Assembly (NCBI GenBank): GCA_022072125.1
Contig: JAJVIH010000005.1
Span: 1-55,513, forward strand
Length of the DNA: 55,513 nucleotides
Source of the DNA: Myxococcota bacterium
GTDB lineage: Bacteria; Myxococcota; JAJVIH01
Direction: 5' to 3'
Shown here: positions 4,858-39,732 of the stretch, piece after piece
How the letters are laid out: each line of letters begins with the position of its first letter
Position numbering within the stretch: the stretch's first letter is position 1
Notes under the pieces: model-generated
Told to the model about the DNA's origin: nothing
Database searches by the model: none
What the model saw: only the letters and a program-made list of their open reading frames with translations
Program-made: the position numbers and the translations under genes

Positions 4858-5224
4858 AAGTCCCTCGCGCCCGCCTCCAGTCGCCGCGTGGCACGACTGG
4901 ATGGCCCTGCGCGATCCCCCTATTCAATGCATATGCCAAGACCTGTTCGCCCGAAGTCAGGCGAACCAACTGGCGGGTGTATTCTACCGGGACGCGCTCG
5001 TATTTATCCAACAATATCAATCGGCGCGTGTCAATTTCGTACACTTCACCCCGGACCCCCGTCCTTCCCATCCGGACCAGACCTGGATATCTGCCCAGGT
5101 TGACGAGCGAATAGAGGGCAAGGGTCTGCCGCCGTCCCAGACAGCGGCAGCCCTTCAGGTAGTGGTTGGCGGGTTCCCGCCGGAGCAGCGTTCCGTATAC
5201 AAAGAAACGCAAGGCATGCCTCAT
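4841..5224 (-). CDS. Gamma-glutamylcyclotransferase (GGCT/AIG2)-like protein
   Basis: About 127 residues with the GGCT-fold signature. FFVYGTLL near the N-terminus forms the substrate loop, VRGEVYEI lies in the middle, and LLDKYERVPVEY carries the conserved acidic residue that acts as general base in this family. The family makes 5-oxoproline from gamma-glutamyl peptides or amines; the substrate here is unknown. I chose the ATG at 5224 because it overlaps the stop of the giant gene as ATGA and sits just before the conserved fold. An upstream in-frame ATG at 5260 would only add residues read through the giant gene. The 3' end overlaps the next gene by 17 bp. Confidence 0.85.
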   Translation of the reverse strand: MRHALRFFVYGTLLRREPANHYLKGCRCLGRRQTLALYSLVNLGRYPGLVRMGRTGVRGEVYEIDTRRLILLDKYERVPVEYTRQLVRLTSGEQVLAYALNRGIAQGHPVVPRGDWRRARGTYEWQR

Positions 5225-17200: not shown

Positions 17201-19335
17201 TTGGGCGAACCCACCACCACGTCGGCGAAACCGTCGCCATTGAAATCCCCCACCGCGGGCCGGTGACCAAACCGGTGCTGCCCGGAGCCCAGGATTTCCT
17301 GGCGGGCGCCGCTGCTGTCGTCAAGAAACAGGGGTGAAGCGAAAGGAGGGTTTGACCGCATCCGGTAAACATTCACCACGCCGTTCGCATTGTTATAGAA
17401 ATCGTCGGAGACCACCACATCAGGCCAGCCGTCTCCGTCCACATCGCCCACATCCAGTTGATTGAAGGCCCCGGGATAAGGAGGGGACACCACCCGCGCC
17501 GGCGGGCCGCCGTAGCCATTGTTATCGGCGCCAGCCAGCCAGATTCTGATTTCCGTGTTTCCCGCATTCCAATCCGGCGAGGAGAAGATGATGTCCGTCC
17601 GCTTGTCGCCATCCAAATCCCCCACCTGACGGACAAATACTTCGCCGCTTGGAGAAGCAGGCACGATCAAAGGAGTGGCGTACGCCGTGGGCGGGGGGGT
17701 GGCCACTCCCTTGATATTGAAATATTTTCCCACGGACGGGGACCCGGCGATGAAGTCGCTCAAGCCATCCCGGTTGTAGTCGCCTGTCCACGCCACGGAT
17801 TCGCCGAAGCGATCTCCGCTCACAAAACTCAAACTCGAACCCAGGATGGTCGCGGTGTTGGTCAACAGAGAACCCGTGTTTCCGTAAAACACCGTGACTT
17901 TACCCTTGTTGACATCAAATCCCGGCGAACCTGCGATAAAATCGGCGAACCCGTCGCCGTTGCTGTCGCCAATCCCTTCCACCACCCAGCCCAGGTTGTC
18001 GCTTCCTGTTCCGGTGACGGTGCGGGTGGGCGTGGGTGCGACTCCGCCGGGATTGCTGCCCAGGAACAGGTCCACCTGCCCGCCGTTGCTATTGAGAAAC
18101 AACGAGCCTACCACCATGTCGCCCACGCCATCGTTATTGAAGTCGCCGATGCCGGCCACGTATGTGCCGTACTGGGCGGGGCCTGTGATGGTCTGGGTGG
18201 GGGTTGGGTCAAATCCGTTGGGATTGCCGTGGAAAACCAGCACCTTGGGAGGGCTGGCGTCCGGCATGCTCACGGCGAGGTCTCCAAAACCATCGCCATT
18301 CACATCGCCGATCGCATGGTTATGGTAACCCAGTTCAGCGGCGGCGATATTGGACTCATACAGCCAGGAGGGAGGGGTGATGACGGGGTCAATATGAATG
18401 GGGTACCGGGCGTCGCGATCATTCACGGCGATCACCACCGCGGAACGGGCGGGAGTCAGATCGCCCTTCGCGTTGACGCCGGTGGGCAGGGTTTCAACGG
18501 ACATGCGGGCGTCCAGTTTCCGGCCTGCTCCGTCGAAGACCTTCAGTTCCGTGTATTGCAGCACATCGCGTTTACCGTCGGTGAATACAACGGTCTGCCC
18601 GCCCTGCTCCGCGCGGGCTTGCATGCCATTGAACATCACGGTGACTTTCAGGCCGCCATCACCCGCGGGTTTGTCATCCACATAAAAGCCATGCTCCAGG
18701 CCATCGGCCAGGTTGCGGAAGTATTCGCGCACGCCCGGACGCTGGATCTCAATCCGTCCATTGCATTCGCCCGAAAGACCTTTTGGATCACTGGCGCCGC
18801 AATCCGGACGAATCAGTTTGCCGGCCAACGCGCCGGAAACCGGGCCCGCGCGCCCCACCCCGCCCAAACCAATTTTCAGCTTCCAGGACTGTTCCACGGG
18901 ACTGGTTTTTTTCCGGCCGGATTTTGAAGTTTCATAAGAGCGGACTTCCATCCCATCCGGGCTAATATTTCCCTGCAATCCACGGAAGGGATTCACTGCC
19001 TGATATCCGCCGCCCCGGTTTTCAATCCGCAGACGATCATGATTCAAACGTCCCGCGACGGATTGCATCCATGCCTGATTGACGGGGGGCTGGGTGGCGA
19101 GCGGCTTGCTGTCAAATACCGGATTAAAATTCCGCGATACGCCCGGTGCGGGCGCCGGAGCGGCCGGAGCGGCGGCGCCCGGAACAGGAGCGGAACCGGC
19201 TTTTTTAACGGGTGGTTCCTCGCCACACCCCGCCATAACCGCTGTTATCGCCGCCATCAAAACCGCAAACTGGAAATTGCGGCCACATGGAAGATTGCGG
19301 CCACATGAATGACCTATCCCCTGATTCTGCTTCAT
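5221..19335 (-). CDS. Giant modular surface lipoprotein: FG-GAP, kelch, Cys-rich, PKD and MYXO-CTERM-like parts
   Basis: One intact 4704-residue frame. A lipobox (VMAGC, Cys37) ends the signal peptide. Residues about 317-1155 hold 14 FG-GAP repeats of the type GDxNGDGxxD, enough for two seven-bladed propellers. Two and a half Cys-rich units follow (about 1270-1620) and include a MopE-like CNGLDDDCDEQVDN motif near 1535. Next come about six kelch repeats (1627-1940), ten Cys-rich units of about 160 residues (1945-3548), three invasin-like Ig domains and seven PKD-type domains (3549-4550). The C-terminus has PGCSC, a hydrophobic helix and RRRPRRRE, as in MYXO-CTERM sorting signals. A Shine-Dalgarno AGGTG lies 5 nt before the ATG. 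The signal peptide contains a tandem CGRN duplication (18-bp period, 19276-19307). A cell-surface adhesion or binding role is inferred. Confidence 0.95.
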   Translation of the reverse strand: MKQNQGIGHSCGRNLPCGRNFQFAVLMAAITAVMAGCGEEPPVKKAGSAPVPGAAAPAAPAPAPGVSRNFNPVFDSKPLATQPPVNQAWMQSVAGRLNHDRLRIENRGGGYQAVNPFRGLQGNISPDGMEVRSYETSKSGRKKTSPVEQSWKLKIGLGGVGRAGPVSGALAGKLIRPDCGASDPKGLSGECNGRIEIQRPGVREYFRNLADGLEHGFYVDDKPAGDGGLKVTVMFNGMQARAEQGGQTVVFTDGKRDVLQYTELKVFDGAGRKLDARMSVETLPTGVNAKGDLTPARSAVVIAVNDRDARYPIHIDPVITPPSWLYESNIAAAELGYHNHAIGDVNGDGFGDLAVSMPDASPPKVLVFHGNPNGFDPTPTQTITGPAQYGTYVAGIGDFNNDGVGDMVVGSLFLNSNGGQVDLFLGSNPGGVAPTPTRTVTGTGSDNLGWVVEGIGDSNGDGFADFIAGSPGFDVNKGKVTVFYGNTGSLLTNTATILGSSLSFVSGDRFGESVAWTGDYNRDGLSDFIAGSPSVGKYFNIKGVATPPPTAYATPLIVPASPSGEVFVRQVGDLDGDKRTDIIFSSPDWNAGNTEIRIWLAGADNNGYGGPPARVVSPPYPGAFNQLDVGDVDGDGWPDVVVSDDFYNNANGVVNVYRMRSNPPFASPLFLDDSSGARQEILGSGQHRFGHRPAVGDFNGDGFADVVVGSPNFTGGQTLEGRVSLFFGRPLGTPLQPTGQYEPNVNNTTMGKNAFRVGDINGDGYDDALFTNPNANTGYAWLFYGGGAGLGSPVWQASAPSGFAYGVSAAGGDFNGDGYSDVAISQVDIGNNAFNVHVYISTGASGLPATPNDTLSGPAVSHFGASIASIGDINRDGFGDLLIGQPNPSGNGKALLFTGSPGVNPLVFSGWEVMGDAEVNLGMAVGYLGDINGDGYGDIAVGSRQTGGTVTIYEGRNDVGTGQLPSTVPAATINSSFGLAGSKVTITGVGDTDGDGFNDFIITASGYNSNDGVVRWYKGGAAIDTTDDWSFGGAGNQMGHSAAPIGDINGDGFNDFAFGTPFYSSNDGLVYVMYGSPSGPSNQTLLTYTGPTPPTEFGSGIAGVGDANGDGFSDFVVGAPTYTNGNNYEGAVTIYHGGGKGRAWRFTQMKNIGVPMPPGSINQLTSGFNLRFPGFNAIDGGYWTPGARLVMSPFIPVGVDANGGANNVPLSLPQSFSTFPLFEASPFPSIYWRAQVIHPLHLDPRASKSRYYYDPGNLAGTGDYAFVMGRTQGNACVTGAQCNNGFCVDGFCCESACNQPCLACANALTGGANGTCAPAYDNTDPHNDCASSPPTSCGDDGMCNGSGQCRKYGPATQCANPFCSGVNNEFANSTAFCDGAGDCGNPSQTDCTPFRCGGGGSCLTACSTLADCTPGNYCNGSNQCVAQQADGASCTIGTECASGNCVDGVCCNTICTGSCQACSAAKTGGTDGVCADILTNTDPDSECPMCSVCNGGGSCAAAAPGLDPKNECFGSGVCGSCNGSGSCYAPVGESCNGLDDDCDEQVDNNITPAMCSGYSCEAGSCRTTCSMPSHCAPPYFCDGGVCVPPRPNGQACIVNSECSSSFCGNGVCASGFICSTDEQCAGPYVIQNQSPALYPANAVYAAMAYAPSTGKAYYFGGDNDGPTNDTYEYNPVTNQWTLLNPSVKPTARFGHAMTYMDSCNAGIYMYGGTDGSSNLNDIWKFDPVAGEWSLQVANAGGVAVAHAKMAKFDSCYLMILGGETMVPADSAQIIKYNVLDQSITFDIFPGTQRREHAMVYSPAFNAVLLFGGREGTNYLDDTWRYDAGTATWTNLNPGGRPPPTGAAVYWWNESRNRFDVYGGLAIGDSLTSDIHSYDPLGNQWQTHGGVSNAVALRNMSAAYIGAPHNRAVVSGGNGEEGPIDQTQTVLWTINEYCKDGDARCFWRKPLAAACSADPQCLSNHCADGVCCNAACDNTCEACVNAITGQPDGQCQAVPDGQDPDSECTDQGPSACSTDGSCNGSRNCRIYAAGTECTQNYCVDSDTFQPAYTCQPGEVFSCQSVPVEECGPYICEGSPGAAGCRTICTVDAHCVSTHYCNGGSCDPKQSNGAVCASGAECTSGNCVDGFCCDLACNGLCEACSAVKTGAPNGQCAAVPTGQDPDSECADDGAASCLRDGFCNGGGACRLYANGVECVQNSCTGAQNETLVNADTCNGSGTCMDNSTTSCAPFKCTGAPGSASCASTCVLDSDCVSSHYCDGANICQPKKAQGVACSLGNECQSNSCADGFCCDSPCNGFCEACSMAKSGAPNGQCAAVPSGQDPDSECVDQGAASCANDGYCDGAGSCRMYANGTICQQNSCTGAENETLVNTDQCNGSGTCVDNNTTSCAPYKCTGAPGSAACANSCVDDSDCVSGYYCDGANTCQPKKAQGVVCSLGNECQSSFCTDGVCCDSACGGLCKACVLAKTGSPDGQCAPVLTGSDPDAECTDDGASSCQRDGMCNGAGACRLYANGVVCQQNSCTGVENETLVNADQCNGLGTCVDNSTTSCAPYKCTGAPGSASCANTCVSDTDCVSTHYCDGANTCQPKKAQGVACAAANQCQSNFCTDGVCCDSACGGLCKACSYAKNGVADGQCSAIATGQDPDSECSDDGASSCQQDGACDGAGSCRLYANGTECVQNSCAGSENELLNAADMCDGSGFCTDMGQVLCAPFKCTGAPGAASCLSACTSDSDCVSGYFCDGASTCQPKKVDGDVCLANNECFSSFCTDGFCCNSVCNGLCEACSMAKSGAPNGQCAAVPSGQDPDAECVDDGTASCMKDGFCSGSRSCRLYANGTACLQNSCTGGENHILNSTDICDGAGACSDQGTVDCSPYRCAGVPGSAACLNSCTSDADCRSTHYCNGSNACVPKKLLGDTCAAANQCQSNFCTDGVCCENGCGGLCQACTAAKTGVADGNCRAVTFGSDPDNECTDDGAASCQQDGMCNGAGACRLYANGVVCQQNSCTGAENETLVNTDQCNGSGTCVDNATTSCAPYKCTGAPGSAACANTCASDTDCVSTHYCDGANTCQPKKAQGVACTAGNQCQSNFCTDGVCCDSACGGLCKACLAAKTGSPDGQCAPVLTGSDPDAECTDDGAPSCQRDGMCNGAGACRLYANGVVCQQNSCTGVENETLVNADQCNGLGTCVDNNTTSCAPYKCTGAPGSAACANTCVSDTDCVSTHYCDGANTCQPKKAQGMACAGDSQCGSNFCADGFCCDTACNGLCEACSLARNGAADGLCAPVPGGNDPDNECLDDGPASCMKNGSCSGARTCELYASGVECLQSSCMGAENEILNVPDTCSGSGVCDDMGVQSCYPYKCTGAPGSAACANSCVDDSDCVSGYYCDGANACQPKKAQGMVCTGANECQSNSCADGFCCDSACGGLCEACSLAKNGAANGLCAPVQNGTDPDNECLDDGAASCQQDGMCNGAGACRLYAAGTECLAQSCTGGTVDNAHQCDGAGLCLSQGTVQCSPYACNGPNCGAACVSDTECLPGYNCLMTACVPADTPAGPFILTAVPAIIPADGVSTTTITSTAIQRIGTGIVPDGTLITVSATSGTITTPDEDLGHPGIQVKTTAGVISFTLKSSTQIVTATVDAMSVLGNAAGQTTVDFANVKPAANAGSDFAVDERTLASLTGSGNDVNGQAVTFQWTQIAGQPISLSDNAISNPGFTAPAVIRADSSAVFRLVVRDAGGLFSDPDDVTVTIRNVVPVGEPFGTIVLTPNPASVIANGTAVSTISGPVRDKNSNPVPDGKLLTVTASTGLITTADASPGTPGVQVATSGGAISFTVRSPNVTGQSVVNAVVDEPGEASATTTVTWIPGPPALIGSVAVNPNTVNADGTSTVVLSAQNIRDAFGNTVANGTAITVQVQDSRLTVQGTPVANSGNMSVTLVAGTRRGSANVTVVGASESKSASVTLLNLPPVLTAPDTVDAEEGEVAFLTSSGSDPNGDTLSFQWTQISGSPVTLSAPSASSASFVSPMPIVGNQSLRFEVTLSDGEASVKKTVTVVVRDTKNRKPIANAGEDFAVDEGKDFQLDASLSKDDDGETLSYAWLQLSGPATVVSDPTSARPTLRAPAVNKDEEAIFQVVVNDGKEDSLPDTVKVTFRQVNIKPVANAGPPQTIEEGLAVTLDGSLSNDPDGDRLNFAWRQIAGTSVNLTGANATRATFTAPQVTADTVLRFELVVEDNSGSKSDPSTVDITVTDKPNRAPVANAGADLQVSEGDDVVLNGTQSSDPDNNPLTYRWTQTGGPTVTLNAEVPENPTFTAPRVQPGSETLQFQLIVNDGLVDSAPDTVQVTVANLPNNAPVADVVDISGQTFNEGATVTLDASRSSDADGDKLEFIWAQVSGDALGVSLSNTSVITFTAPTVTAPKSYGFRLVVNDGKTNSLPVDVTLNVANNINEPPVAVAALNKVSSVIEGDPVIREGDVVELSSAGSSDPNNDPLTYQWTQVSGPGVLLSDGSASAPVFTVPQIEDSSLFQFALVVRDDKGGQSNEAPVTLNVTAEICNPIKVVSYRMTVSAPDINPAAVVTFQADEEEIEVEITSGPARTFTIEAIDNRGRVIYRGETTVDLVGQSEVDLTIPLISGCENTALTGTGTGALTMALRVGVGNGKSLARIQSPGCSCALPEQGPHDGAPFTVAMVVMAGLWMALRRRPRRRE
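8690..13500 (-). repeat. Ten tandem Cys-rich coding repeats, about 480-bp period
   Basis: Inside the giant gene, units of about 160 codons repeat ten times. Each has the order CDGANTCQPKK, FCxDGxCCDSxC, CxxDGxCxGxxxCRLYANG, QNSCTGxEN, and CAPYKCTGAPGSAxC. Some copies are almost identical at DNA level. About 320 bp starting at 9642 match those starting at 11572 with a few substitutions, four units apart. More than 100 bp around 9181 match those around 12079, six units apart. The unit resembles Cys-rich repeats of myxobacterial surface proteins. Confidence 0.9.
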
Positions 19336-29781: not shown

Positions 29782-29808
29782 TCCGGCCGGCGCCATGAGG
29801 TGAGGCGG

Positions 29809-31146
29809 TTGTCAGTCCACCCGGATCAGCCGCACCTCTATGTCGCTCCGGTATTGCGGCCGCTTTCACCCCGCCGGGCGGAATACCTGACCGATCACGC
29901 CATTCTCGTGGAACGGGGAAAAATCTCCGCCGTCGCCTCCGCCGCCAGTTTCGCCGGGTCCCCGGGCCTGCGCCGGATTGTTCTGGAAGGCCAGATGATC
30001 ATGCCGGGCCTGACGGACGCGCATCTCCACCTCGCCCAACTCGACGCGGTCGCCCTCGATGGACACGAACTGCTCGACTGGCTGGAGCATCATATCTTCC
30101 CGGCGGAATCGGCGCTTTCCCACGAGGAACTCGCCCGCGACACCGCCCGCCGGTTTTTCGCCGAACTGACGGAAGGCGGAACCACGGCGGCGGCGATCTA
30201 CACATCCCTGCACGAAAACGCCTGCCATATCGCCTTTGAAGAAGCGGAACGCTCGGGCCTGCGCGCCGCCATGGGGAAGCCGCTGATGGACACCGGGGGC
30301 CCCTATTCCGAATCCACCGGAGAGGCGATTTCATCCATGACCCGCCTGTTCCGGCGCTGGCATGGCGCCGGAGAAGGGCGCCTGCAATTCGCCGTGACGC
30401 CCCGTTTCGCCCTGTCATGCAGCGACGGACTCATGGCCGCCGCCGGACGACTGGCCCGGGACAACGGTCTGCTGGTCCAGACCCACATGTCTGAAAATCT
30501 GGATGAAATCCGCGCGGTCCGGGAACGCTTTCCACAACATTCCTCATATGGCGCGGTCTATGATCATTTTGGACTGATGGGGCCACGCACCCTGCTGGCC
30601 CACTGCATCCACCTCACGGAGGATGAAAAGCGGCTTCTCGCGGAACGGGAAGCCACGGTGGCCCATTGCCCCCGGTCCAACCTGTTCCTGCGCAGCGGCA
30701 TGATGCACGTTCGATCCGCGCTGCAAAACGGCATTCGCGTGGGGCTGGGCACCGATATCGCGGCGGGCCCCACCACGTTCATGCCCGATGAAATGCGCGC
30801 GGCGATTGATGTTTCCAAGGCCCGGTACGCGCTGGACAAAAGCGCCAACGGCTCCGCCGCTGAACCGCTGACCCCGGAGGAAACCCTCTACATGGCGACG
30901 GCGGGCGGGGCGGACGCCCTGGGATTGCATGGCGTCCGCGGACGCCTGCTCCCCGGCGAGGAGGCCGATTTCATCGCGGTGGATATCCAGTCGCTGCACC
31001 CGCAGGGAGGCCCGCCGGGATTCCGGCTGCCGGAACGGCCCCTGCTCTCCCGTTTCATCTACCGCGCCACTCCCGCCATGATCACGGGCGTCTGGGTCCG
31101 CGGACGGCGGCTCAAGGGTGAAAATCCGCCCACCGCCACACACTGA
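29809..31146 (+). CDS. guaD: Guanine deaminase-like amidohydrolase
   Basis: About 445 residues. The family converts guanine to xanthine and ammonia with one zinc ion. The metal motif PGLTDAHLHLAQ is near residue 66. LLDWLEHHIFPAE and RRFFAELTEGGTTAA are typical of guanine deaminases. His in QTHMSEN, His in LAHCIHL and Asp in GLGTDIAAG complete the metal set. Two starts are possible: TTG at 29809, with GAGGTGA 5 nt upstream, and GTG at 29800 without a ribosome site. It is co-directional with the Wzc-like gene, 27 bp downstream, with no clear functional link. A related amidohydrolase substrate cannot be excluded. Confidence 0.85.
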   Translation: MSVHPDQPHLYVAPVLRPLSPRRAEYLTDHAILVERGKISAVASAASFAGSPGLRRIVLEGQMIMPGLTDAHLHLAQLDAVALDGHELLDWLEHHIFPAESALSHEELARDTARRFFAELTEGGTTAAAIYTSLHENACHIAFEEAERSGLRAAMGKPLMDTGGPYSESTGEAISSMTRLFRRWHGAGEGRLQFAVTPRFALSCSDGLMAAAGRLARDNGLLVQTHMSENLDEIRAVRERFPQHSSYGAVYDHFGLMGPRTLLAHCIHLTEDEKRLLAEREATVAHCPRSNLFLRSGMMHVRSALQNGIRVGLGTDIAAGPTTFMPDEMRAAIDVSKARYALDKSANGSAAEPLTPEETLYMATAGGADALGLHGVRGRLLPGEEADFIAVDIQSLHPQGGPPGFRLPERPLLSRFIYRATPAMITGVWVRGRRLKGENPPTATH

Positions 31147-31220
31147 TCGTTGAATGATCCGGACCACCTTGGTGCTTGCTGAATGGCCTCCTGCCCGCCG
31201 GGCGCCGCCGGAAACGGAGA

Positions 31221-31715
31221 TTATTCCCGCGGAGGAGGGGACTCCTCCGCCTGTTTTTCCAGATCGGCCTTGAAACGGGCCAGTTCCCCGGCGGGCATGT
31301 AAAAGGCCGCCGCCAGGCCGGGATTGATCGCCAGCCCCAGTTCGGGCGGAACCCTGGACAACAGCCAGTCGGCGTCCACCAGCACCGCCGTCCGCATGTT
31401 CTGAAGGTGGGGGTTCTCCTTCTGGTTCATGCGCGCGCGCGAAGTAAACGCCAGGATCATCTGTCCCTGCCGCTCCCAGGCCGACACGATCAAATCCATC
31501 TTGCCGCCGAGGGCGTCATTGGCGTCGCCGCGCATGGGCGTATAGAGCTTGGAACGCAACAACAGGTCGAGGAAACGGCTCATGTCGCCCTTGCCCTTGC
31601 AGAGGGCCTTCAGTTCGCGTTCCAACTCATTGGCCGGGACAAATTTATCCAGGCTTTCACTCAGACTGTCGCCCGGCTGTTTTCCAAAACGGAAGAGACT
31701 GGAAAGGAATTTCAT
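31221..31715 (-). CDS. SseB-like domain protein
   Basis: 164 residues, soluble. The N-terminal half (ELERELKALCKGKGDMSRFLDLLLRSKLYTP) matches the start of the SseB N-terminal domain: an acidic and hydrophobic helix, then a strand ending in a Tyr-Thr-Pro or Tyr-Val-Pro. The family is widespread and its role is unclear. Here it is the last gene of the eight-gene GlmL-like membrane operon, and its ATG overlaps the previous stop (ATGA). There is no type III secretion gene nearby, so the SseB name should not be read as a virulence function. Confidence 0.8.
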   Translation of the reverse strand: MKFLSSLFRFGKQPGDSLSESLDKFVPANELERELKALCKGKGDMSRFLDLLLRSKLYTPMRGDANDALGGKMDLIVSAWERQGQMILAFTSRARMNQKENPHLQNMRTAVLVDADWLLSRVPPELGLAINPGLAAAFYMPAGELARFKADLEKQAEESPPPRE

Positions 31716-32440
31716 GGCTGTTTCATTTCCGCGGATTCAGCCGGAGGCTTCCGGAGCCGTCCGGTCAAAAAGACTCCCGCCACGACCAGCACCGTGAAAA
31801 CCAGCGTGGCGTAGTGGTAATCGTATAATTCCTGGGCGCGGCCAATCGCCAGGGAAATCCGGCCCATGACGGTATAGCCGAAGGAAGCGCCGAAGGAGAT
31901 CATCAGGAAATACATGCCCACCCGCGAGGCCGCTCCCAACGCGCCCTTGTGCTCGCGGGAGAAAAAGAAAAACAGCAGGCAGCAGATCAGGCCGGCGAAG
32001 CCAATCCAGTTGTTGATCGCCTCGCGCCAGGTGGTCTGGCCGGACGCCCACAGCGGCTGCATGCTGGACTGAATCTGGATGATCAAATCCGACGAGGCGA
32101 AACCGATGATTTGCGCCCCCGCGAACGCGCCAATCACAAACGCGATGGGAATGGTCGCCAGCCAGGCGATCTTTTTGAACAGGGTCGCGAACATCAACAG
32201 CGAGAGCGCGATGGGCGTGAGCGCCATGGCCAGTTTTCCCGGATCGCCCCCGGATTCCCGCAAGGGCATGATCAGTTCCGGGAGGATATTGGTGTGGAAC
32301 ACCACGACCAGCCAATAACCCGCCGAAACCCCCAGGTAGATATGCTCCGCGAGTTTGTAGAAGGGGTTGTCCTTGTAAAGAAAGGACAGGATGAACACCG
32401 TCAACCCCACCCCAACCCAGGCGCCCATGGTCTCCATCAT
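31712..32440 (-). CDS. Polytopic membrane protein of the GlmL-like operon
   Basis: 242 residues with about six or seven hydrophobic helices, starting at VGLTVFILSFLYKDN and ending near YATLVFTVLVVAGVFLTG, then a short cytoplasmic tail. The segment KDNPFYKLAEHIYLGVSAG and the gene order may help find homologues. The start has AGGAGG 7 nt upstream and overlaps the preceding stop (ATGA). I recognise no characterised family. It probably forms part of an inner-membrane complex with the neighbouring products. Confidence 0.85.
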   Translation of the reverse strand: MMETMGAWVGVGLTVFILSFLYKDNPFYKLAEHIYLGVSAGYWLVVVFHTNILPELIMPLRESGGDPGKLAMALTPIALSLLMFATLFKKIAWLATIPIAFVIGAFAGAQIIGFASSDLIIQIQSSMQPLWASGQTTWREAINNWIGFAGLICCLLFFFFSREHKGALGAASRVGMYFLMISFGASFGYTVMGRISLAIGRAQELYDYHYATLVFTVLVVAGVFLTGRLRKPPAESAEMKQP

Positions 32441-33279
32441 GGCTTCCTCCTGCCCAGGAAGTAGACGGCGTTGCCCAGCACGATGGCGAAAATGATCAGC
32501 AGGTGGCCGATGTTCTGGGTGTCCAGCCCGCTGATGGCCTTGCCGTCAACGCCCAGGATTTTTTCATAGTCCGCCGAGCCTTTCATTCCCGCCGAAAGGC
32601 CGAACAACTGCCCCGACTTGTAATAGGGAATATAGTCCAGCGCCGCCACCGCGGTGGTGGCGCACGCCATCCGCACGCCGTAGCGCGACTGGACCTGTTG
32701 CACCCATTCCTTGATGCCCGGATACCCCGCCGACACGTTGATCATCGCGGCGAAATCCTTCATGCCGTTGACGCCATTCATGATGGGGTAGCTGTCCAGG
32801 CGCCCTCCCTGGGTATCGGCGGAATACACCGAACGGATGTCATCGGACACGCTTTTGATGACCAGGATTTCCCCGGGACGGAATCCCAGGTTGATGTAAT
32901 CCGTTCCATACTGTTTGTTTGCAAAACCGGGCTTTCCGCCCACCCCTTTTTTGACCTCGTCAATGGCTTTGGTGACCAGCGGCGGCGCGGCGGGCCACAA
33001 ACTCATCACCACCACCTTGATGTCGCGCTGGAACAGGTGCTGGTACAGGGCCACCGAGAATGGGTACAACTCGGGGGCCGAAGCCGGGTCGAAATCGCTT
33101 GACACCAGCACGGTGCTGCCGGGGGGGATTTTTTCTATTCCATCGTAAATATCCTGGACCATCCGGTCCTGGGCGAAGGGCAATTTGAGCGGCATCAGCA
33201 ACGGGGCGAGGAGAGCCAGGCCCATGAGCAGAAAGAGCCAGCGGCGGTCGAGATGGGTCAGGCGTTCACGCAGGTTCAT
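32437..33279 (-). CDS. Membrane-anchored extracytoplasmic domain protein
   Basis: 280 residues. A helix at about 14-33 and another at about 257-276 flank a 220-residue domain that should face the periplasm. The domain opens with GSTVLVSSDFDPASAPELYPF and contains the repeated pattern of a three-layer alpha/beta fold (VVVMSLWPAAPPLV, LVIKSVSDDI). GVRMACATTAVAALDYIPYYKSGQLFGLSAGMKG-like residues near the C-terminus are conserved-looking. No enzyme motif is recognised. The gene is 4 nt downstream of the next upstream gene in the operon. Confidence 0.85.
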   Translation of the reverse strand: MNLRERLTHLDRRWLFLLMGLALLAPLLMPLKLPFAQDRMVQDIYDGIEKIPPGSTVLVSSDFDPASAPELYPFSVALYQHLFQRDIKVVVMSLWPAAPPLVTKAIDEVKKGVGGKPGFANKQYGTDYINLGFRPGEILVIKSVSDDIRSVYSADTQGGRLDSYPIMNGVNGMKDFAAMINVSAGYPGIKEWVQQVQSRYGVRMACATTAVAALDYIPYYKSGQLFGLSAGMKGSADYEKILGVDGKAISGLDTQNIGHLLIIFAIVLGNAVYFLGRRKP

Positions 33280-33283
33280 GGCT

Positions 33284-33931
33284 TCATCCCGCCAGGTAAG
33301 AACGTTCCATGCCCAGTATCACGCGGATGCCGGTGCTGATGGCCCCCAGCGCCGCCCCAACCATGATGGCGCGTTTGCCGGCGAGGTTGGGCACGTCGTT
33401 GATCCAACTCACCAGGTCCGGCAGGTTCAGCGCGCCGCCGGTGAGTTTGGCGGAGAGCAATTCGCCAATGGGCACGCGCCCCAGCATGACGATGATGGCC
33501 GCGGCCAGCAGCAACGTGGCCTCCACCGAACGGGCGCGGAACGCCCGGAACGCCGCCGAGGTGATGTAAAAGGCCAGCAACGCGAACATGGTGGACTGCA
33601 ACGGCACCAGCAGGTGGGTGAACATCCAATTGGAAAAGCTCCCCTTGTCGTCGAATTTCCCCTGTTCATAAAAACCCAGCCCGGCGGTGGCGATCATCGC
33701 CGCCACCATGATCGCCTTGTACATCCAGTCGCGCTCCTTGCGGACGATGCGCGGGAGGTTGACGATCAGGATATTCAGCGTGCCCAGCACGATCATGGCG
33801 GACATGACCGAGATGCCCCATTTTTCAATCGCCGCCTTGGGATGCTGCACCAGGGGATGGGGCGAGAAATATTCCACCGTCATGATCACGCCGGTGATGA
33901 ATGTAACAATCAATGGGATCGTTTTCTTCAT
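33284..33931 (-). CDS. Polytopic membrane protein of the GlmL-like operon
   Basis: 215 residues with about six predicted helices. The first (PLIVTFITGVIMTVEYF) acts as signal anchor, and an amphipathic loop (LPRIVRKERDWM) lies between helices two and three. The C-terminal part (RAIMVGAALGAISTGIRVILG) is a last helix with a short tail. Only 4 nt separate it from each neighbour. I see no transporter signature. Its hydrophobicity and its place in the operon suggest an integral subunit of the same complex as its neighbours. Confidence 0.85.
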   Translation of the reverse strand: MKKTIPLIVTFITGVIMTVEYFSPHPLVQHPKAAIEKWGISVMSAMIVLGTLNILIVNLPRIVRKERDWMYKAIMVAAMIATAGLGFYEQGKFDDKGSFSNWMFTHLLVPLQSTMFALLAFYITSAAFRAFRARSVEATLLLAAAIIVMLGRVPIGELLSAKLTGGALNLPDLVSWINDVPNLAGKRAIMVGAALGAISTGIRVILGMERSYLAG

Positions 33932-33935
33932 GGCG

Positions 33936-35561
33936 TCATTTCATGGCGGCGATTTCAAAGAACTGGCTGAATTGCGGCATGCCCAGGGACAAACTGACGG
34001 ATCCGATCACTATCAGGCCGATAAACAGCATCTTGGCCCAATCCGCGGCCTTGAGCGTGGACAACATGCGGGGGTCCTTGGACATATAGGCCGATGCGGC
34101 GAAAAGCTCCTCGCCAATCAGGGTGTAATCGCAGGCGGCGATGAAGAAGGGAAGCTGGGTGACTTCCGCGGTCCCCGCCACCTGGATCGCCTTCGCCTGA
34201 AAGCCGGTTTCCGACAGGATCAGCGATTCGGCGTAGAAACCGCCCAGATAGATATTGGCGGCGGGTTTGTCCCGCAGCATGATGCCGTTGACGCCAGCGG
34301 TGAAGGCGAATTGCTCTTGCGACAGATAAGGAACCGACTCCGGCTTGAAGGCGTCCGGACGGCCGGCGTTGTAATAAGCCTGCTTGACCACGTCCGCGGC
34401 GACCTCGCGCACGAACGGGATCATATTGGGGGCCACGATGTCGCTGTCGTATTCGGCCACCATCTCGGCCACCTTGCCCAGGATCAGCATGGAGCTGATG
34501 GTCTGGATATTGGTCATGTCCAGAATGCCGGGCACGTAAAGAACCGGGCGGCCCATTTCCGTCGCCCGGCCAATCGCTTCCTCGATGGCGTCAATGCCGG
34601 GAATGCGCCGCACATACAGGTTGGCGGACCGTTTCGCCTGCCACATGAACCAGAAGATCAGCCCCGCCACGGCGGCCAGCAGCAGCGCCACGTTCAGCCG
34701 CAAACCATTGAACCATGCGGCTTCCGCCGCCACGGGAAGCGACGGGCCGGAGACCGCTATTTCATCCCGCGCCTGGGCGGACGCGGCGAGGAACCCGGCG
34801 CGCAGCATAAACGGTTTGTCGCCGCCGGGAACCGCTTGCAGGCTGACCAACACCACATCTCCCGCCAACCCGCTGATTTTTTCCTCCTCCAGGGCCTTGA
34901 CCGCCTTGTCTTTGTCCTGAAACACCAGATGTGCGGCGATGGGCAGGGGCGTGGGACCGTCCGCGGTGCTGGCGTCGAGGCGGAAGGCGTCCGGAATCAA
35001 TCCGGCCTTGCCGTCCCTGGAAAGTTCGATCCCCACGGCCACGCGGCCATCGGGCGTCAACGCCAGCGCGGCGATATTCATCAGCCCGTTGGAGGCGATA
35101 TTCCGCGTGACCGCGCGCAACCGCATGGAAACGCCGCGCTTGTCCGGTGGAATCTGCGCGGTCAGGGTATGGGTGATCTGGTCCTTGATCTCCCCGGCGG
35201 TTTCCGGAAGCAACGATCCGGTGGATTTGCCGGACGGGTCGCGGTGGACAACCACTTGGGCGGCGGCGGGTTTCCAGCCGCTGCCGCCGCCTTCGCTGAC
35301 GAGTACGCCCAGCGCCTGTTTTTCCGGGTCTCCGGACTGGCGGACGAACAGGCGCAGCGCGTCGCCGCTGTCATTCCAGCGATCCGCCGCGCCCAGGACT
35401 TCCGCCGGCCGCATGGACACGGGCCGCGCTTCCGCGGCCGCGCGCGCCGGTCCTTCCGCCTGGCCGGTTTCGCCGCCAACAGGCTTGCCGGGCTTCGCCG
35501 ACAGGATCACCCCCGCCGCGAGAAACAGCAGCACGCCAGCGGTTTCAAGCTGCTTTTTCAT
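33936..35561 (-). CDS. Large membrane protein, probably DUF6754-like
   Basis: 541 residues. An N-terminal helix (AGVLLFLAAGVILSA) leads to an extracytoplasmic domain of about 260 residues rich in beta strands. A central helix lies near 290-312 (LLLAAVAGLIFWFMWQAK). The cytoplasmic domain contains NLYVRRIPGIDAIEEAIGRA, MGRPVLYVPGILDMTNIQT and FTAGVNGIMLRDKPAANIYLG, and a last helix follows near 512-530. I associate this cytoplasmic domain with DUF6754 from memory; the function is unknown. Start and preceding stop share one base (TGATG). Confidence 0.8.
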   Translation of the reverse strand: MKKQLETAGVLLFLAAGVILSAKPGKPVGGETGQAEGPARAAAEARPVSMRPAEVLGAADRWNDSGDALRLFVRQSGDPEKQALGVLVSEGGGSGWKPAAAQVVVHRDPSGKSTGSLLPETAGEIKDQITHTLTAQIPPDKRGVSMRLRAVTRNIASNGLMNIAALALTPDGRVAVGIELSRDGKAGLIPDAFRLDASTADGPTPLPIAAHLVFQDKDKAVKALEEEKISGLAGDVVLVSLQAVPGGDKPFMLRAGFLAASAQARDEIAVSGPSLPVAAEAAWFNGLRLNVALLLAAVAGLIFWFMWQAKRSANLYVRRIPGIDAIEEAIGRATEMGRPVLYVPGILDMTNIQTISSMLILGKVAEMVAEYDSDIVAPNMIPFVREVAADVVKQAYYNAGRPDAFKPESVPYLSQEQFAFTAGVNGIMLRDKPAANIYLGGFYAESLILSETGFQAKAIQVAGTAEVTQLPFFIAACDYTLIGEELFAASAYMSKDPRMLSTLKAADWAKMLFIGLIVIGSVSLSLGMPQFSQFFEIAAMK

Positions 35562-36694
35562 CAGCTTCCCTCGATGGCCTCCACATTGGCGCGCGGAACC
35601 ACCGCCCGTTCACCGCCCTCGAACTCCACTTCCAGCACGCGCACCATGGTTTCCGACGCCATCCGTTGCAATTCATGGGGAAGCGCGGACACCCGCCCGA
35701 TGCGCCCGAAATACGGATACCGGATGCAGCGGATCAGACTTCCCACGTCAATCCCCTTGACCTCCTGGCCGCGCTCATCCACCGCCTCGGTCCCTTCCGG
35801 CCAGGTGACGATGACCTCGGGCCGCATGACGCCCGCGCGGATCTGCGTGGCCCCATTGACGCTGGCGCGCTGGCCTTCCCGCGATCGCAACAACTCCCAG
35901 GTGCGGCGCGCCATGCCGATTTGACCAAACCCCTCGGTGATGACCAGCGTGGTCCCCAGCTTCTCCGTGCCGGTGATGGCGACGCCCAGTTCATACCCCA
36001 GAATGCGCCGGATGTCGTCGAAATGGAATCCGCCCGTGACAACCGCCTTCACACCCAGTTCCCGGGCGCGCTCGAAACCCGCGCGCGTCAGAAATCCGCC
36101 CCCCACCACCACCTTGCCGCGGTGCTGTCCGCCAAAATCCCCGGCGTCCAGCATCGCATCAGGCGACGCCGCCAACATCATGATCTCGCCCTTGACCTCG
36201 CCGCCCAGGCCGATGATGCCCTGGATCTGCATGGCCACGGTCTTCACCACCACGCCCTCGCCGGGGATAAGCTCCTCCACCACGCCGTCCACGTAGGCGT
36301 CAATGGCGACTTCCACCGGCTTCTCGCGCAGCATGATCTGCCCGGAGACTTTTGAAATGCTCTCGATGGTTCCCTCCACGGGCGAAGCCAACTGGCTGCG
36401 GAAGAACCCCAGAAAACCCTCGGACTCGCCGATCAGTTCGCCCTTGGCGACCTCGTCTCCCTCCCGCTTGCGCAAGACATGGGTAACCTCGGCGGGCATG
36501 ACTGACAGGATATTCGCCGCGTTCACCGGAAAGACCTTGCCGGGCAGACTGGTGCGCGCCACGATGTCATCCGCCTTGAGGCGCTGGCCCGTCACGGGCA
36601 GCACCTCGCCGCGCAACGGCAGTTTCCGCTCCTTGCGGATGACCGCGCGTTCGCTGACCTTGAGCCCTGGCGTGAATACGTTCGCCATGTTCAA
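35561..36694 (-). CDS. Lipoyl/hybrid-motif and KOW-like protein
   Basis: 377 residues, soluble. Residues about 45-160 contain Gly-rich turns such as LASPVEGTIESIS and YVDGVVEELIPGEGVVV, reminiscent of biotinyl/lipoyl or RnfC-like barrel-sandwich folds, without a clear lipoylation Lys. The C-terminus (FGRIGRVSALP... then VVPRANVEAIE) looks like a KOW/translation-type small barrel. The middle part holds several Gly-Gly turns (VKAVVTGGFHFDDI). Its start overlaps the GlmL-like stop (ATGA). A scaffold or regulatory role for the membrane complex is inferred from context only. Confidence 0.75.
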   Translation of the reverse strand: MNMANVFTPGLKVSERAVIRKERKLPLRGEVLPVTGQRLKADDIVARTSLPGKVFPVNAANILSVMPAEVTHVLRKREGDEVAKGELIGESEGFLGFFRSQLASPVEGTIESISKVSGQIMLREKPVEVAIDAYVDGVVEELIPGEGVVVKTVAMQIQGIIGLGGEVKGEIMMLAASPDAMLDAGDFGGQHRGKVVVGGGFLTRAGFERARELGVKAVVTGGFHFDDIRRILGYELGVAITGTEKLGTTLVITEGFGQIGMARRTWELLRSREGQRASVNGATQIRAGVMRPEVIVTWPEGTEAVDERGQEVKGIDVGSLIRCIRYPYFGRIGRVSALPHELQRMASETMVRVLEVEFEGGERAVVPRANVEAIEGS

Positions 36695-38517
36695 CCTTCC
36701 GGGTACTCGTCAAAATCCCGGGACCAACGGGCCAGCCGCGCCACCCGATCAGACGCCTGCCGCAGGTCCAGGAAGGGACGGCGTCCGCGGCCATCCAGCG
36801 CGATCCCCACCACGCCGCCGTGGATCATTTTCTCCACTGGTTGATCGCGTCCCGCCCCCAGGTCCACGCCGCGGGCGGGCTCCGCCACGGCGCGGATGGG
36901 CTCGCCATACGTGGCGGGGACCAGGATGATTTCGCCATACCTGATGGGTCCGCTCCATGGCTTGCCCTGCGAGGACGGAATCTCCAGGCGCACATGAGCC
37001 ATCACGTCGCCCTCGCGCATGCGTTTGGACTCGACCGGAGCAATGCAGGCGCCCAGCCGGATCAGGCAGTCCTTTTCAAAAACCTGCAGCGCGGCGGTTT
37101 CATGGATGGTCGAAAGCACGCCCAGGTGGGGCATCATGAAAATGGAATCCACGGTGAGTTCGGTGAAGCCTTCGGGGAGGAAGGAATCAATCATTATCTT
37201 CATGGACTGGGAACGCCGGGGCGCGTGGGACAGGACTCCGCCCGATCCGATGATCATGTCGAGCTTCATCATGTTGACCAGGGTCTGGCCGCCTCCCGAC
37301 TGCTCGAACGCCTGGGAGATGTCGCGCTCGGTCTGCACGCCCTTGAGCGACACCGCGAATTCCTTGTGCTGCACCAGCGACAGGCGCAGGGCCTCGCGGG
37401 CGATGGCCTGCTCGATTTTCAACTCCTCCAGCCCCTGGGGGATGGTGGTGGGCCGGATCATCTTGTTGGCGATGCGGTTGCGCAGGTCCTCCGGCGAAAT
37501 TTCGATGGGCGTCCAGCGCATGATGTTTTCGACGCCCGCCTCCGCCAGCACGTTGCAGACGGAGTAGGACATGCCCAGGTTGGCGCTGACGGTGCGGTTG
37601 AATACGCCATCGAAGACCGAAAACACGTCCGTGGTCGCCCCGCCAATGTCCACGCCCAGCACATTGACGCCCTTCTTGCGGGCCTCCATTTCAATCAGCA
37701 GGCCGACGGCGCCCGGGGTCGGCATGATCGGCGCATCCGCCCAGTCCATCAGCTTGCGGTAGCCGGGCGCCTGGGCCATCACATGCTCCATGAACAGGTC
37801 GTGAATCTTGTCGCGGGAGGGCGCCAGGTCTTCCATCTCCAGTACGGGACGCACGTTGCCGGTGATGTGCAGGGCGCATTTACGGCCAAGGATTTCCCGG
37901 ATCAGTTCGCGCGCCTCCTTGTTGCCGGAATAGATGATCGGCAGGTCGTATCCCTGTCCCAGGCGCGGGCGCGGATTGGCGGCGCTGATCAATTCGGCGA
38001 GCTGAACCACATGCTTGATGGTTCCGCCGTCGGTTCCGCCCGCGAGCAGGATCATGTCGGGCCGCAACTGGCGGATGCGCTCGATTTTTTCGTGGGGCTT
38101 CCGCCGGTCGTTGGAGGCGATGATGTCCATGACGATGGAGCCGGCGCCCAGGGCCGCGCGCTGGGCGCTTTCGGCGGTCATGCTCTTGACCACGCCCGCC
38201 ACCACCATCTGCAGGCCGCCGCCAGCGGACGAGGTGGAAATGTAGATATCCGCTCCCGCTTCCCCCTGCTGCGGACGCAGGATGGCGCCACCGGCGATGA
38301 ACGGGCGCCCGCGCAACTCGGATATTTCCTGGATGGCGTTGAGAACGCCCCGGGTCACATCCTCGAATGGCGCCTCAACGGTGGTGGGCGCCTCGCCGCG
38401 GCCGGTCAGGCGGTATTCCCGGTTGGCCTCGTCGTATTCGATGAGGATGGCCTTGGTGGTGGTGGATCCGCAGTCGGTGGCGAGGATCGAACGGATATCC
38501 TCAGGCTTGCGCGGCAT
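36691..38517 (-). CDS. GlmL/MutL-like ASKHA-fold ATPase
   Basis: 608 residues. Phosphate-1 (ATDCGSTTTKAILIE), phosphate-2 (DIGGATTDVFSVFDG) and adenosine-type (IIGSGGVLSHAP) motifs identify an actin/Hsp70/hexokinase-fold ATPase of the GlmL/MutL type. The named family member helps glutamate mutase, but no glmES genes are present here. The gene sits in an operon of membrane proteins, which suggests a different client. Start chosen at ATG 38517, which directly begins the conserved domain; it overlaps the upstream gene by 17 bp. The C-terminal 100 residues are basic and may bind partners or membranes. Confidence 0.88.
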   Translation of the reverse strand: MPRKPEDIRSILATDCGSTTTKAILIEYDEANREYRLTGRGEAPTTVEAPFEDVTRGVLNAIQEISELRGRPFIAGGAILRPQQGEAGADIYISTSSAGGGLQMVVAGVVKSMTAESAQRAALGAGSIVMDIIASNDRRKPHEKIERIRQLRPDMILLAGGTDGGTIKHVVQLAELISAANPRPRLGQGYDLPIIYSGNKEARELIREILGRKCALHITGNVRPVLEMEDLAPSRDKIHDLFMEHVMAQAPGYRKLMDWADAPIMPTPGAVGLLIEMEARKKGVNVLGVDIGGATTDVFSVFDGVFNRTVSANLGMSYSVCNVLAEAGVENIMRWTPIEISPEDLRNRIANKMIRPTTIPQGLEELKIEQAIAREALRLSLVQHKEFAVSLKGVQTERDISQAFEQSGGGQTLVNMMKLDMIIGSGGVLSHAPRRSQSMKIMIDSFLPEGFTELTVDSIFMMPHLGVLSTIHETAALQVFEKDCLIRLGACIAPVESKRMREGDVMAHVRLEIPSSQGKPWSGPIRYGEIILVPATYGEPIRAVAEPARGVDLGAGRDQPVEKMIHGGVVGIALDGRGRRPFLDLRQASDRVARLARWSRDFDEYPEG

Positions 38518-38848
38518 GTGGGTCGGGGCGGAAATAGGGAGCCTCCACGGCGAGGGGATCACGCCCCTGGGCGCGCGCCTCCTCGAAATATTCGATGAAC
38601 TGGAGAATGAGATCGAGCGCCTGGGGTTCGTCAAGCAAAAGCGCCAGTTCGTTGAAATCCACCGCCGGGAAAAAAGCGTGCGCGATGGGAGCGAAAAACA
38701 CCATCAACTGGGAGCCGGTGCGCGCCAGCGGCCGCGATGACTCCAGCATGAAAATGGCGGGCGCGGCCATGTGATTGGCGGTAACCAGCCTGGCCAGCCG
38801 ATCCACCATGGACATCTGCCGCACGCTCAGTCCCGATCTGGATGACAT
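38501..38848 (-). CDS. Small unknown protein, first gene of the GlmL-like operon
   Basis: 115 residues. Predicted to be mostly helical, with a hydrophobic stretch (SQLMVFFAPIAHAFFP) that is too polar to be a clear membrane helix, and an acidic C-terminal half. The open frame extends upstream to 38992, but the preceding DNA holds a promoter and a terminator, so I start at the ATG at 38848. The 3' end overlaps the GlmL-like gene by 17 bp. No family recognised. Confidence in the start is moderate. Confidence 0.65.
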   Translation of the reverse strand: MSSRSGLSVRQMSMVDRLARLVTANHMAAPAIFMLESSRPLARTGSQLMVFFAPIAHAFFPAVDFNELALLLDEPQALDLILQFIEYFEEARAQGRDPLAVEAPYFRPDPHAAQA

Positions 38849-38879
38849 TGCAAGGATTCCCGGGGCGTCTGACGGCCTC

Positions 38880-38907
38880 AGATTAGCACAGCCCGGGCGG
38901 ATGCAAA
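38880..38907 (-). promoter_or_regulatory. Candidate promoter of the GlmL-like operon
   Basis: On the minus strand TTTGCA (38907-38902) and an extended -10 TGC-TAATCT (hexamer 38885-38880) have a 16-bp spacer. The boxes match 4/6 and 3/6, helped by the TGn extension. The expected start near 38873 leaves a leader of about 25 nt. Confidence 0.4.
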
Positions 38908-38929
38908 CTCCGCCGGACGCCCCGCGCCA

Positions 38930-38966
38930 CGGAAAATGAAACAGCCGGCCATGGAAGACCGGCTGT
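38930..38966 (-). terminator. Rho-independent terminator of the 38989-39651 lipoprotein gene
   Basis: The minus-strand RNA forms ACAGCCGG / CCGGCTGT (arms 38966-38959 and 38948-38941) with a 10-nt loop, followed by TTTCATTTTCC. It lies 22 bp after the stop at 38989 and separates that gene from the GlmL-like operon. Confidence 0.75.
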
Positions 38967-38988
38967 ATTCCGTTGATTGGGGAACGAA

Positions 38989-39651
38989 TCAACCAGGGAT
39001 TGCGGCGTCTCCGCTTGTGGCCGCACCGCCATCGCCGGGAACCGCGGCGTCGCTGTCCGTGGCCGCGCCGCCATCCCCCGGAATCGCGGCGTCGCTGCCG
39101 GTGGCGGGGCCGCCATCGGAACCGGTGTCATCCGTGGTTCCGGTGTCGCCGGGCGCGGCGCCATCGCCGGCTCCGGTATCCAGGGCGCCCGCGTCGGCGA
39201 TTCCACTGCCGTCACAGAATTTGCCGTCCACACGGCCGGTCCGGAACCTTTTTTCGATATTGGCCAGAAGCGCATCCCCCTTTTTGGATTTCAACTCCGT
39301 GGTCATTTTCAGGATGTGAATCGTGCATTCCGCCATGGGCAGGTTCTTTGGCGTCAGCACCACGGTTTTGGTCGTGTCGCTGTATTGGGCGGAAAGGATT
39401 TCCACCGGCGAGCGCGTTCCGCCGGCGAAGCTCTCCAGAACCAAACCCTTGCCGAAGGAAGCGGAGTCCATTTCCACGCCGAACACAATGACGATCGGGC
39501 TTGACGGATCGGCGTTGGTGGAGTTCCCGCTTGGCGACGTATCCAGAATGGTGATGACGGGAGGCGGCTCGGAAATCAGGACATTGGGTTTTTCGCAGGC
39601 CGCCAACAGCGCACCCGCCGCTGCAAGCGCGGCGATCAAAACTCGAAACAT
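38989..39651 (-). CDS. Lipoprotein with Ig-like domain and Ala/Gly/Asp-rich tail
   Basis: 220 residues. The signal peptide MFRVLIAALAAAGALLAAC gives a lipobox Cys19. A Big_5/SbsA-like Ig domain follows (ITILDTSPSGNSTNADPSSP then IVIVFGVEMD), similar in style to that of the cytochrome-operon lipoprotein. From about residue 150 the protein is low complexity (GDTGTTDDTGSDGG), including three copies of a 14-residue repeat. GGAAGGTG lies 6 nt before the ATG at 39651, which fixes the start. It is divergent from another Asp/Ala-rich lipoprotein gene. A surface or periplasmic role is likely; nothing more can be said. Confidence 0.85.
   Translation of the reverse strand: MFRVLIAALAAAGALLAACEKPNVLISEPPPVITILDTSPSGNSTNADPSSPIVIVFGVEMDSASFGKGLVLESFAGGTRSPVEILSAQYSDTTKTVVLTPKNLPMAECTIHILKMTTELKSKKGDALLANIEKRFRTGRVDGKFCDGSGIADAGALDTGAGDGAAPGDTGTTDDTGSDGGPATGSDAAIPGDGGAATDSDAAVPGDGGAATSGDAAIPG
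39002..39127 (-). repeat. 42-bp tandem repeat (three copies) in the lipoprotein gene
   Basis: Units begin with GCGGCGTC at 39002, 39044 and 39086, an exact 42-bp period encoding GDGGAATDSDAAVP-like 14-mers at the C-terminus. Such an array can gain or lose units by slippage without breaking the frame. Confidence 0.8.
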
Positions 39652-39732
39652 CCGGTTCACCTTCCTGTGAGGGGCGAGACCCCGTTCACCCCGGAGTACA
39701 TGATTCCCCAGCCTCTGCTGCATATTGATGTC

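Follow-up and report, generated by a model that had tools for sequence, protein, structure and literature searches.

Gene content and organization of the locus

The window analysed here is a 55,513-nucleotide stretch of a Myxococcota bacterium assembly (GCA_022072125.1, contig JAJVIH010000005.1, positions 1 to 55,513), in which eight head-to-tail genes run on the minus strand from 38848 down to 31221. Seven of these, designated A through G (gA to gG in the window), make up a conserved set that is well supported as one molecular system, and H designates the eighth gene. The genes were as follows.

38501-38848, minus strand: gA, 115 amino acids, small soluble protein without known family
36691-38517, minus strand: gB, 608 amino acids from an ATG, MutL/GlmL-type ASKHA ATPase
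35561-36688, minus strand: gC, 375 amino acids from an ATG, barrel-sandwich, swivel and KOW/SH3 protein
33936-35561, minus strand: gD, 541 amino acids, membrane protein, N-terminal region variable, DUF6754 domain conserved
33284-33931, minus strand: gE, 215 amino acids, multi-pass membrane protein, no family over cut-off
32437-33279, minus strand: gF, 280 amino acids, two membrane helices flanking a globular domain, no family
31712-32440, minus strand: gG, 242 amino acids, multi-pass membrane protein, no family
31221-31715, minus strand: gH, 164 amino acids, SseB-like, co-directional neighbour outside the conserved system

An earlier reading made from the DNA letters alone (the sequence-only reading) had described an eight-gene operon with tight junctions, and both the arrangement and the junctions were confirmed. 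A and B overlap by 17 bp, B and C are separated by 2 bp, C and D overlap by 1 bp (TGATG), gaps of 4 bp each separate D from E and E from F, and F/G and G/H each overlap by 4 bp (ATGA). The ATG at 36688 was preferred as the start of gC, while the 377-amino-acid version given previously begins at an upstream TTG. Third-codon-position G+C of the operon genes was 0.75-0.84.

The promoter that had been proposed at 38880-38907 was not recovered, as a sigma-70 scan of positions 31000-39300 gave no hits with 1.8 expected in shuffled sequences. By eye its hexamers agree with the consensus at four of six and three of six positions, and sigma-70 rules may not suit this organism. The interval separating gA from the upstream gene contains a hairpin followed by a T-rich tail (38966-38941, minus strand), although such hairpins were nearly as common by chance (12 found against 7.6 expected in shuffled sequence, standard deviation 3.1).

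The eighth gene matched the SseB family (PF07179, E 2.7e-9, 37.7 bits against a cut-off of 21), and a profile search found no homologue of gH in any of 83 related loci. It was therefore rejected as a component, and the conserved unit comprises seven genes rather than eight; the earlier proposal of an eight-gene system stands for A-G as a set and falls for gH.

Conservation of gene order

A genome scan seeded with DUF6754 returned 302 relatives, from which 80 loci were kept, with D present in every locus by construction. Three loci from the window's phylum (L006-L008) brought the set to 83, in which homologues were counted with a profile of each gene. Two of these loci, L010 and L031, come from contigs already present as L007 and L006 and were left out of the neighbour, glycine-cleavage, synteny and mirror-tree counts; with the window included, the synteny and mirror-tree counts covered 82 loci. 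Many of the contigs are short, and a gene missing from a locus may still be present in the genome.

D and E each had homologues in all 83 loci, F in 81, G in 79, C in 55, B in 49 and A in 45. The core genes lie on one strand in 82/82 loci, and consecutive genes were mostly separated by at most 200 bp (D-E 88/88, E-F 86/86, F-G 83/83, A-B 43/43, B-C 42/46, C-D 36/46), with D followed by F rather than E in two cases. A directly precedes B where both occur. The complete set A-G was present in 41 of 82 loci and complete D-E-F-G in 78, arranged in three block orders: ABC-DEFG, DEFG-ABC (Riflebacteria-type) and ABC-DEFG-DEFG (Eisenbacteria-type). By their record labels the A-G loci belong to Fermentibacterota, Eiseniibacteriota, Rifleibacteriota, Zixiibacteriota, Latescibacterota, Effluviviacota, Planctomycetota and Myxococcota. 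Metagenome-bin labels can mislead, as one Methylomirabilota-labelled locus falls inside Riflebacteria on the B tree.

The set A-G is thus retained across distant labelled lineages far beyond chance, as had been anticipated for a single system, and its homologues are not scattered, given the synteny in 82 loci and the co-occurrence described below. Together these support the claim that the ATPase and four membrane proteins belong to a single gene system. Mirror-tree correlations between the families (0.56-0.85) fit co-inheritance and were given little weight because they have no unrelated-gene control.

The families do not appear to be homologous to one another, since pairwise hhalign comparison of their alignments reached a probability of no more than 2.2%. 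A phage origin was rejected (PHROGs gave no match to A, D, E, F or G, the five proteins compared with it), as was a defence system (none of the eight window proteins matched PADLOC models at E up to 0.1).

gA itself matched nothing in Pfam at E up to 1. In FCB-type loci a small putative membrane protein, here called Z, usually lies just before A (L045 3293-3730; homologues for example at L006 3269, L019 5706, L058 5687 and L126 4287). The only matches of Z, to DUF2207 or bacterial-PH families, were sub-threshold. It may add an eighth component to the system; the window shows no such gene immediately ahead of gA.

Co-occurrence across genomes

Twenty D-bearing genomes were chosen by hand, mainly those without C beside D-E-F-G, and C was found in 18 of them. 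Thirteen of the 20 do not have C on the D-E-F-G locus, and 11 of the 13 have it elsewhere in the genome, the exceptions being G037 and G204. These distant copies stand with A and B (L121, L123, L126), with B (L119) or alone (L120, L122, L125). In L123 an amidohydrolase-like gene (by eye), different from the one near the window operon, sits between A and B. A MutL-family protein was over cut-off in 17 of 21 genomes, those without being G037, G198, G199 and G204. In G196 the MutL-family gene appears as two matches about 2.1 Mb apart on a single contig (C1 496580-497524 and 2582234-2582833), which reflects a rearrangement or a misassembly.

The window's phylum offered a sparse sample in which D occurred in 4 of 193 genomes (G000, G037, G114, G156) and C in three (G000, G114, G156), all among the four D-bearing genomes, with at most ten C candidates scored per genome. 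Such an overlap would arise by chance with a probability of about 3e-6 (about 2e-4 when the window's own genome is left out). In a sample around G202, the genome of a Fermentibacteraceae-labelled locus, D was present in 42/42 genomes with one to four matches each, fragments counted. A C-like match was found in 38 of the 42, comprising one full-length C in 34, a split C in two and a fusion without full-length C in two (one of them with an additional short fragment).

A divergent A-D-E-F-G operon with a D of 1055 amino acids occupies L008 7186-12878 in G037, perhaps a version driven otherwise.

These data bear on whether A-B-C and D-E-F-G are functionally separate blocks that merely travel together. 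In favour of this explanation, several genomes carry the two blocks at separate places and G037 carries just A-D-E-F-G, but co-occurrence persists even when the blocks are apart and also in the sparse phylum sample, the blocks are found joined in two orders, and a fusion of B and C adjoins a D-E-F-G block. Separate function was accordingly regarded as quite improbable.

The ATPase B

gB matched the Pfam MutL family strongly (PF13941, E 2.7e-129, 432.3 bits against a cut-off of 27), with residues 11-484 aligned to the whole model (1-450 of 450) and about 120 extra residues at the C-terminus. Both ASKHA motifs noted previously, DCGSTTTK and DIGGATTD, are present in gB and nearly invariant in its relatives, and 250 of 608 positions were at least 95% conserved among 47 sequences. 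By contrast with the Pfam result, the match to the GlmL equivalog NF040745 was 228.8 bits with a cut-off of 475, and that to the GlmL-related ornithine-degradation protein NF040744 was 217.2 bits with a cut-off of 600.

The glutamate mutase subunit GlmE (PF06368) was over cut-off in none of the 21 genomes, with one sub-threshold match in G200, and the control genomes also had none over cut-off. A constant place of the ATPase beside glmES in relatives, which would have spoken against a single system, was thus not seen, and the sequence-only reading was borne out in holding that it does not serve glutamate mutase here. That B is a GlmL for B12-dependent glutamate mutase with incidental neighbours draws on its membership of GlmL's Pfam family, but the equivalog score, the GlmE result (obtained with no positive control) and the conserved neighbours argue against it, and this role was rejected as extremely improbable. 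A plasmid collection searched with B returned 10 records, all of 25.6-31.7% identity and labelled glmL, 'glutamate mutase L' or nothing.

The partner protein C and natural B-C fusions

gC matched RnfC_N below the Pfam cut-off (E 0.002) and RnfC TIGR01945 with 16.4 bits against a cut-off of 245.95. An AlphaFold2 model built from 34 sequences (predicted local distance difference test score, pLDDT, 86.4) has three parts. The N-terminal part was taken as a barrel-sandwich hybrid on the RnfC_N match, which the structural matches barely test. The middle (about 129-301) resembled swivel domains in a structural search, including RraA (1j3l, Z 8.9, root-mean-square deviation (rmsd) 4.1, 130 aligned), AF_0055 (2hi6, Z 8.9, rmsd 2.8, 110 aligned) and rifampin phosphotransferase (5fbu, Z 8.9, rmsd 3.7, 107 aligned), while the end resembled KOW/SH3 domains such as 8ram_Z (Z 8.8, rmsd 1.1, 51 aligned). 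These matches describe folds and not relatives, because Foldseek gave no match under E 0.001 with the C model, nor did it with the D model. No dehydratase reactivase was among the 50 structural matches listed for C, which does not exclude one. Sequence searches of the PDB with B, C, F and DUF6754 gave nothing convincing, the best for C being NusG (E 0.049). Lipoylation or biotinylation of C was rejected, as no invariant lysine was seen by eye in the barrel-sandwich region of the 34 sequences.

Proteins in which B and C are fused were read out at 910-973 amino acids, with the MutL-type ATPase from 1 to about 500 and C-like stretches at about 570-920. Further C-like matches around G202 sit in open frames of mostly about 920-1050 codons. 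One fusion scanned with Pfam was over cut-off for both MutL (260.3 bits) and RnfC_N (26.2 against 25.6). Nine fusions group in a single clade separate from B on the B tree, which was built quickly and has long branches among the fusions. A fusion lies 76 bp behind the D-E-F-G block in L129 (8725-11475) and about 4-7 kb from it in L130, L131 and L133, while a second kind adjoins a histidine ammonia-lyase gene away from D (L115 2157-6762, L116 3612-8171). That these adjacent genes occur naturally fused argues strongly that B and C act together. A diverged relative of C, 324 amino acids in length, stands alone in G201 (L117 5958-6932).

The membrane proteins D, E, F and G

gD is a clear member of DUF6754 (PF20539, E 1.1e-105, 352.9 bits against a cut-off of 27). 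A model of this domain from the short D of L042 shows a Rossmann-like alpha/beta domain between two long helices, and its best structural matches were Sir2 proteins (Z 11.7, rmsd 3.3, 140 aligned), with other listed matches at Z 8.4-11.0. The N-terminal region of D varies strongly between loci; it has no Pfam family in the window, and in L069 (7940-9949) a PQQ/BamB-type propeller region replaces the usual one. gF matched no Pfam family up to E 1, gE and gG gave only sub-threshold matches (E 0.023 and 0.65, respectively), and members of the F, E and G families searched against Pfam at E up to 0.1 gave scattered weak matches, each in at most three members. Hydropathy and flanking charge, the only basis for topology, suggest that the DUF6754 domain of D is cytosolic and that the globular part of F and the N-terminal region of D are outside. 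In Fermentibacteria-type genomes a lone D without E-F-G was seen, followed by acetyltransferase-like genes by eye (L129 14692-15948, L130 16295-17446, L131 2819-4000).

The outer parts of D and F raise the prospect of a signalling complex in which the variable region of D and the outer domain of F detect a ligand, with B-C acting as a nucleotide switch instead of a motor. The strong variation at the N-terminus of D agrees with this, but no kinase, cyclase or regulator was a regular neighbour among the clusters listed, and two multi-pass proteins with a strictly conserved ATPase would seem to suit work better than sensing. Such a complex was considered unlikely.

Genomic neighbours

Several lineages show the arrangement gcvT-gcvH-gcvPA-gcvPB-Z-A-B-C-D-E-F-G. 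Of the 33 loci that extend at least 2.5 kb upstream of A, 13 carry glycine-cleavage genes on the same strand within 3 kb of it on that side, and a lipoate-ligase gene lies behind D-E-F-G in 13 loci. Single representatives of GcvT, GcvH, GcvPA and GcvPB pass NCBIfam cut-offs and LplA passes its Pfam cut-off only. On the B tree the glycine-cleavage label needs four changes against 18.0 in shuffles. The association may reflect descent of an old gene order, because strongly supported branches force only two changes.

It is conceivable that the system is a membrane-tethered accessory (a reactivase, assembly factor or regulator) of glycine cleavage or a related amino-acid or one-carbon pathway, with B-C remodelling a client enzyme in the manner of B12-dehydratase reactivases, and D-E-F-G anchoring the unit or sensing substrate. 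The glycine-cleavage and lipoate-ligase neighbours favour this, and an ATPase with a swivel domain recalls the glycerol-dehydratase reactivase (PMC7674605). The link is missing in 20 of the 33 loci, including the window, and D-E-F-G is duplicated and placed elsewhere, for example behind Opp-type genes, so that an accessory role of this kind was held to be rather unlikely.

Other recurrent neighbours were a TonB-type receptor (27 loci), an ExbB-type protein (15 loci) and Opp-type transporters, with one representative of each checked. All are leads to amino-acid or envelope functions and not proof. In the window a lipoprotein-like gene with a repetitive Gly/Asp/Ala-rich end is immediately upstream of the operon (38989-39723, minus strand), and an amidohydrolase-family gene is convergent with it (29800-31146, plus strand). 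Farther away, one open frame of 4704 codons has a start resembling a lipoprotein signal (5221-19335, minus strand).

A proposed membrane machine

The interpretation to which we give about an even chance is that B-C is a cytosolic unit on a D-E-F-G membrane assembly, driven by ATP and moving or gating a solute or envelope component. The gene set, its order and co-occurrence, the B-C fusion, the family membership of B and D and the conserved ATPase motifs were observed directly, and from these the physical complex, topology, ATP-driven movement and transport are inferred. B and C would form the single cytosolic unit, probably with help from A, and would dock on the assembly that D, E, F and G would form in the inner membrane, with the cytosolic Rossmann-like domain of D as the most likely contact. 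Binding and hydrolysis of ATP in B would shift the B-C unit and so drive or gate the assembly, which would reach outside through the globular domain of F and the variable N-terminal region of D. The most likely outcome would be a solute or envelope component moved or gated across the inner membrane. As D is multiplied and full-length C single around G202, several D-E-F-G modules in a cell probably share a single engine.

Several observations sit poorly with this machine. G037 has A-D-E-F-G and no B or C was found in its genome; G198 and G199 have C and D with no MutL-family match, perhaps as incomplete bins; and G204, a 1.2 Mb bin labelled ANME-2, is without B and C and probably contains a mis-binned contig. 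Some fusions adjoin the histidine ammonia-lyase gene instead of D, some Fermentibacteria-type loci carry the lone D, and the glycine-cleavage link is absent from the window and the Myxococcota-type loci among others. The fold matches of C and D are middling, with the Foldseek result given above, no recognised transporter signature was seen in E or G, and the suggested topology draws on hydropathy and flanking charge only.

More tentatively, and with the balance of probability against it, A-G may represent an undescribed class of inner-membrane machine that pairs an ASKHA-fold (Hsp70/actin-type) engine with a barrel-sandwich/swivel partner and is not ABC-, P- or F-type. An exchangeable engine (A-B-C or fused B-C) would energise several D-E-F-G modules, and the machine would be a core feature of whole uncultured lineages.

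Because B is extremely conserved and is kept with six partners across several phylum-level lineages, the system should do something basic. Among its four membrane proteins only D has a family name, and that name denotes a domain of unknown function. All 80 kept loci are labelled as uncultured organisms, which may explain why the system went unstudied. The B-C fusion and the separable D-E-F-G block are ready constructs for functional tests.

Comparison with known systems

The set A-G is not explained by any of the families or systems tested. Open-licence papers on DUF6754, PF20539, PF13941, GlmL, reactivases and ASKHA proteins, families of uncultivated taxa, and glycine cleavage in Fermentibacteria and Eisenbacteria yielded no description of the system, and no mention of 'DUF6754' or PF20539 was found in that literature. 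D belongs to a family that is a name without a function. C shares with the N-terminal barrel-sandwich of RnfC/NqrA the weak RnfC_N match, which in a fused relative is just over the cut-off; its score is far under that for rnfC, and farther along the protein the resemblance is to swivel domains (middle) and KOW domains (end).

B has its ATPase family in common with the GlmL/MutL accessory proteins (PF13941, NF040745) and the NF040744 protein. MutL/GlmL is termed a chaperone reactivating glutamate mutase in PMC4682846. B scores under half of both equivalog cut-offs and has the additional C-terminal residues, its partners here are C and membrane proteins, and no GlmE was over cut-off. In glycerol and diol dehydratase reactivases, as described in PMC7674605, an ATPase domain and a swiveling domain act together, and B-C perhaps works in a like manner. 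The difference is that the swivel here would be carried by a separate protein, together with barrel-sandwich and KOW domains, and would be tied to a membrane module. The system was rated as new as a kind, with B and D belonging to named families.

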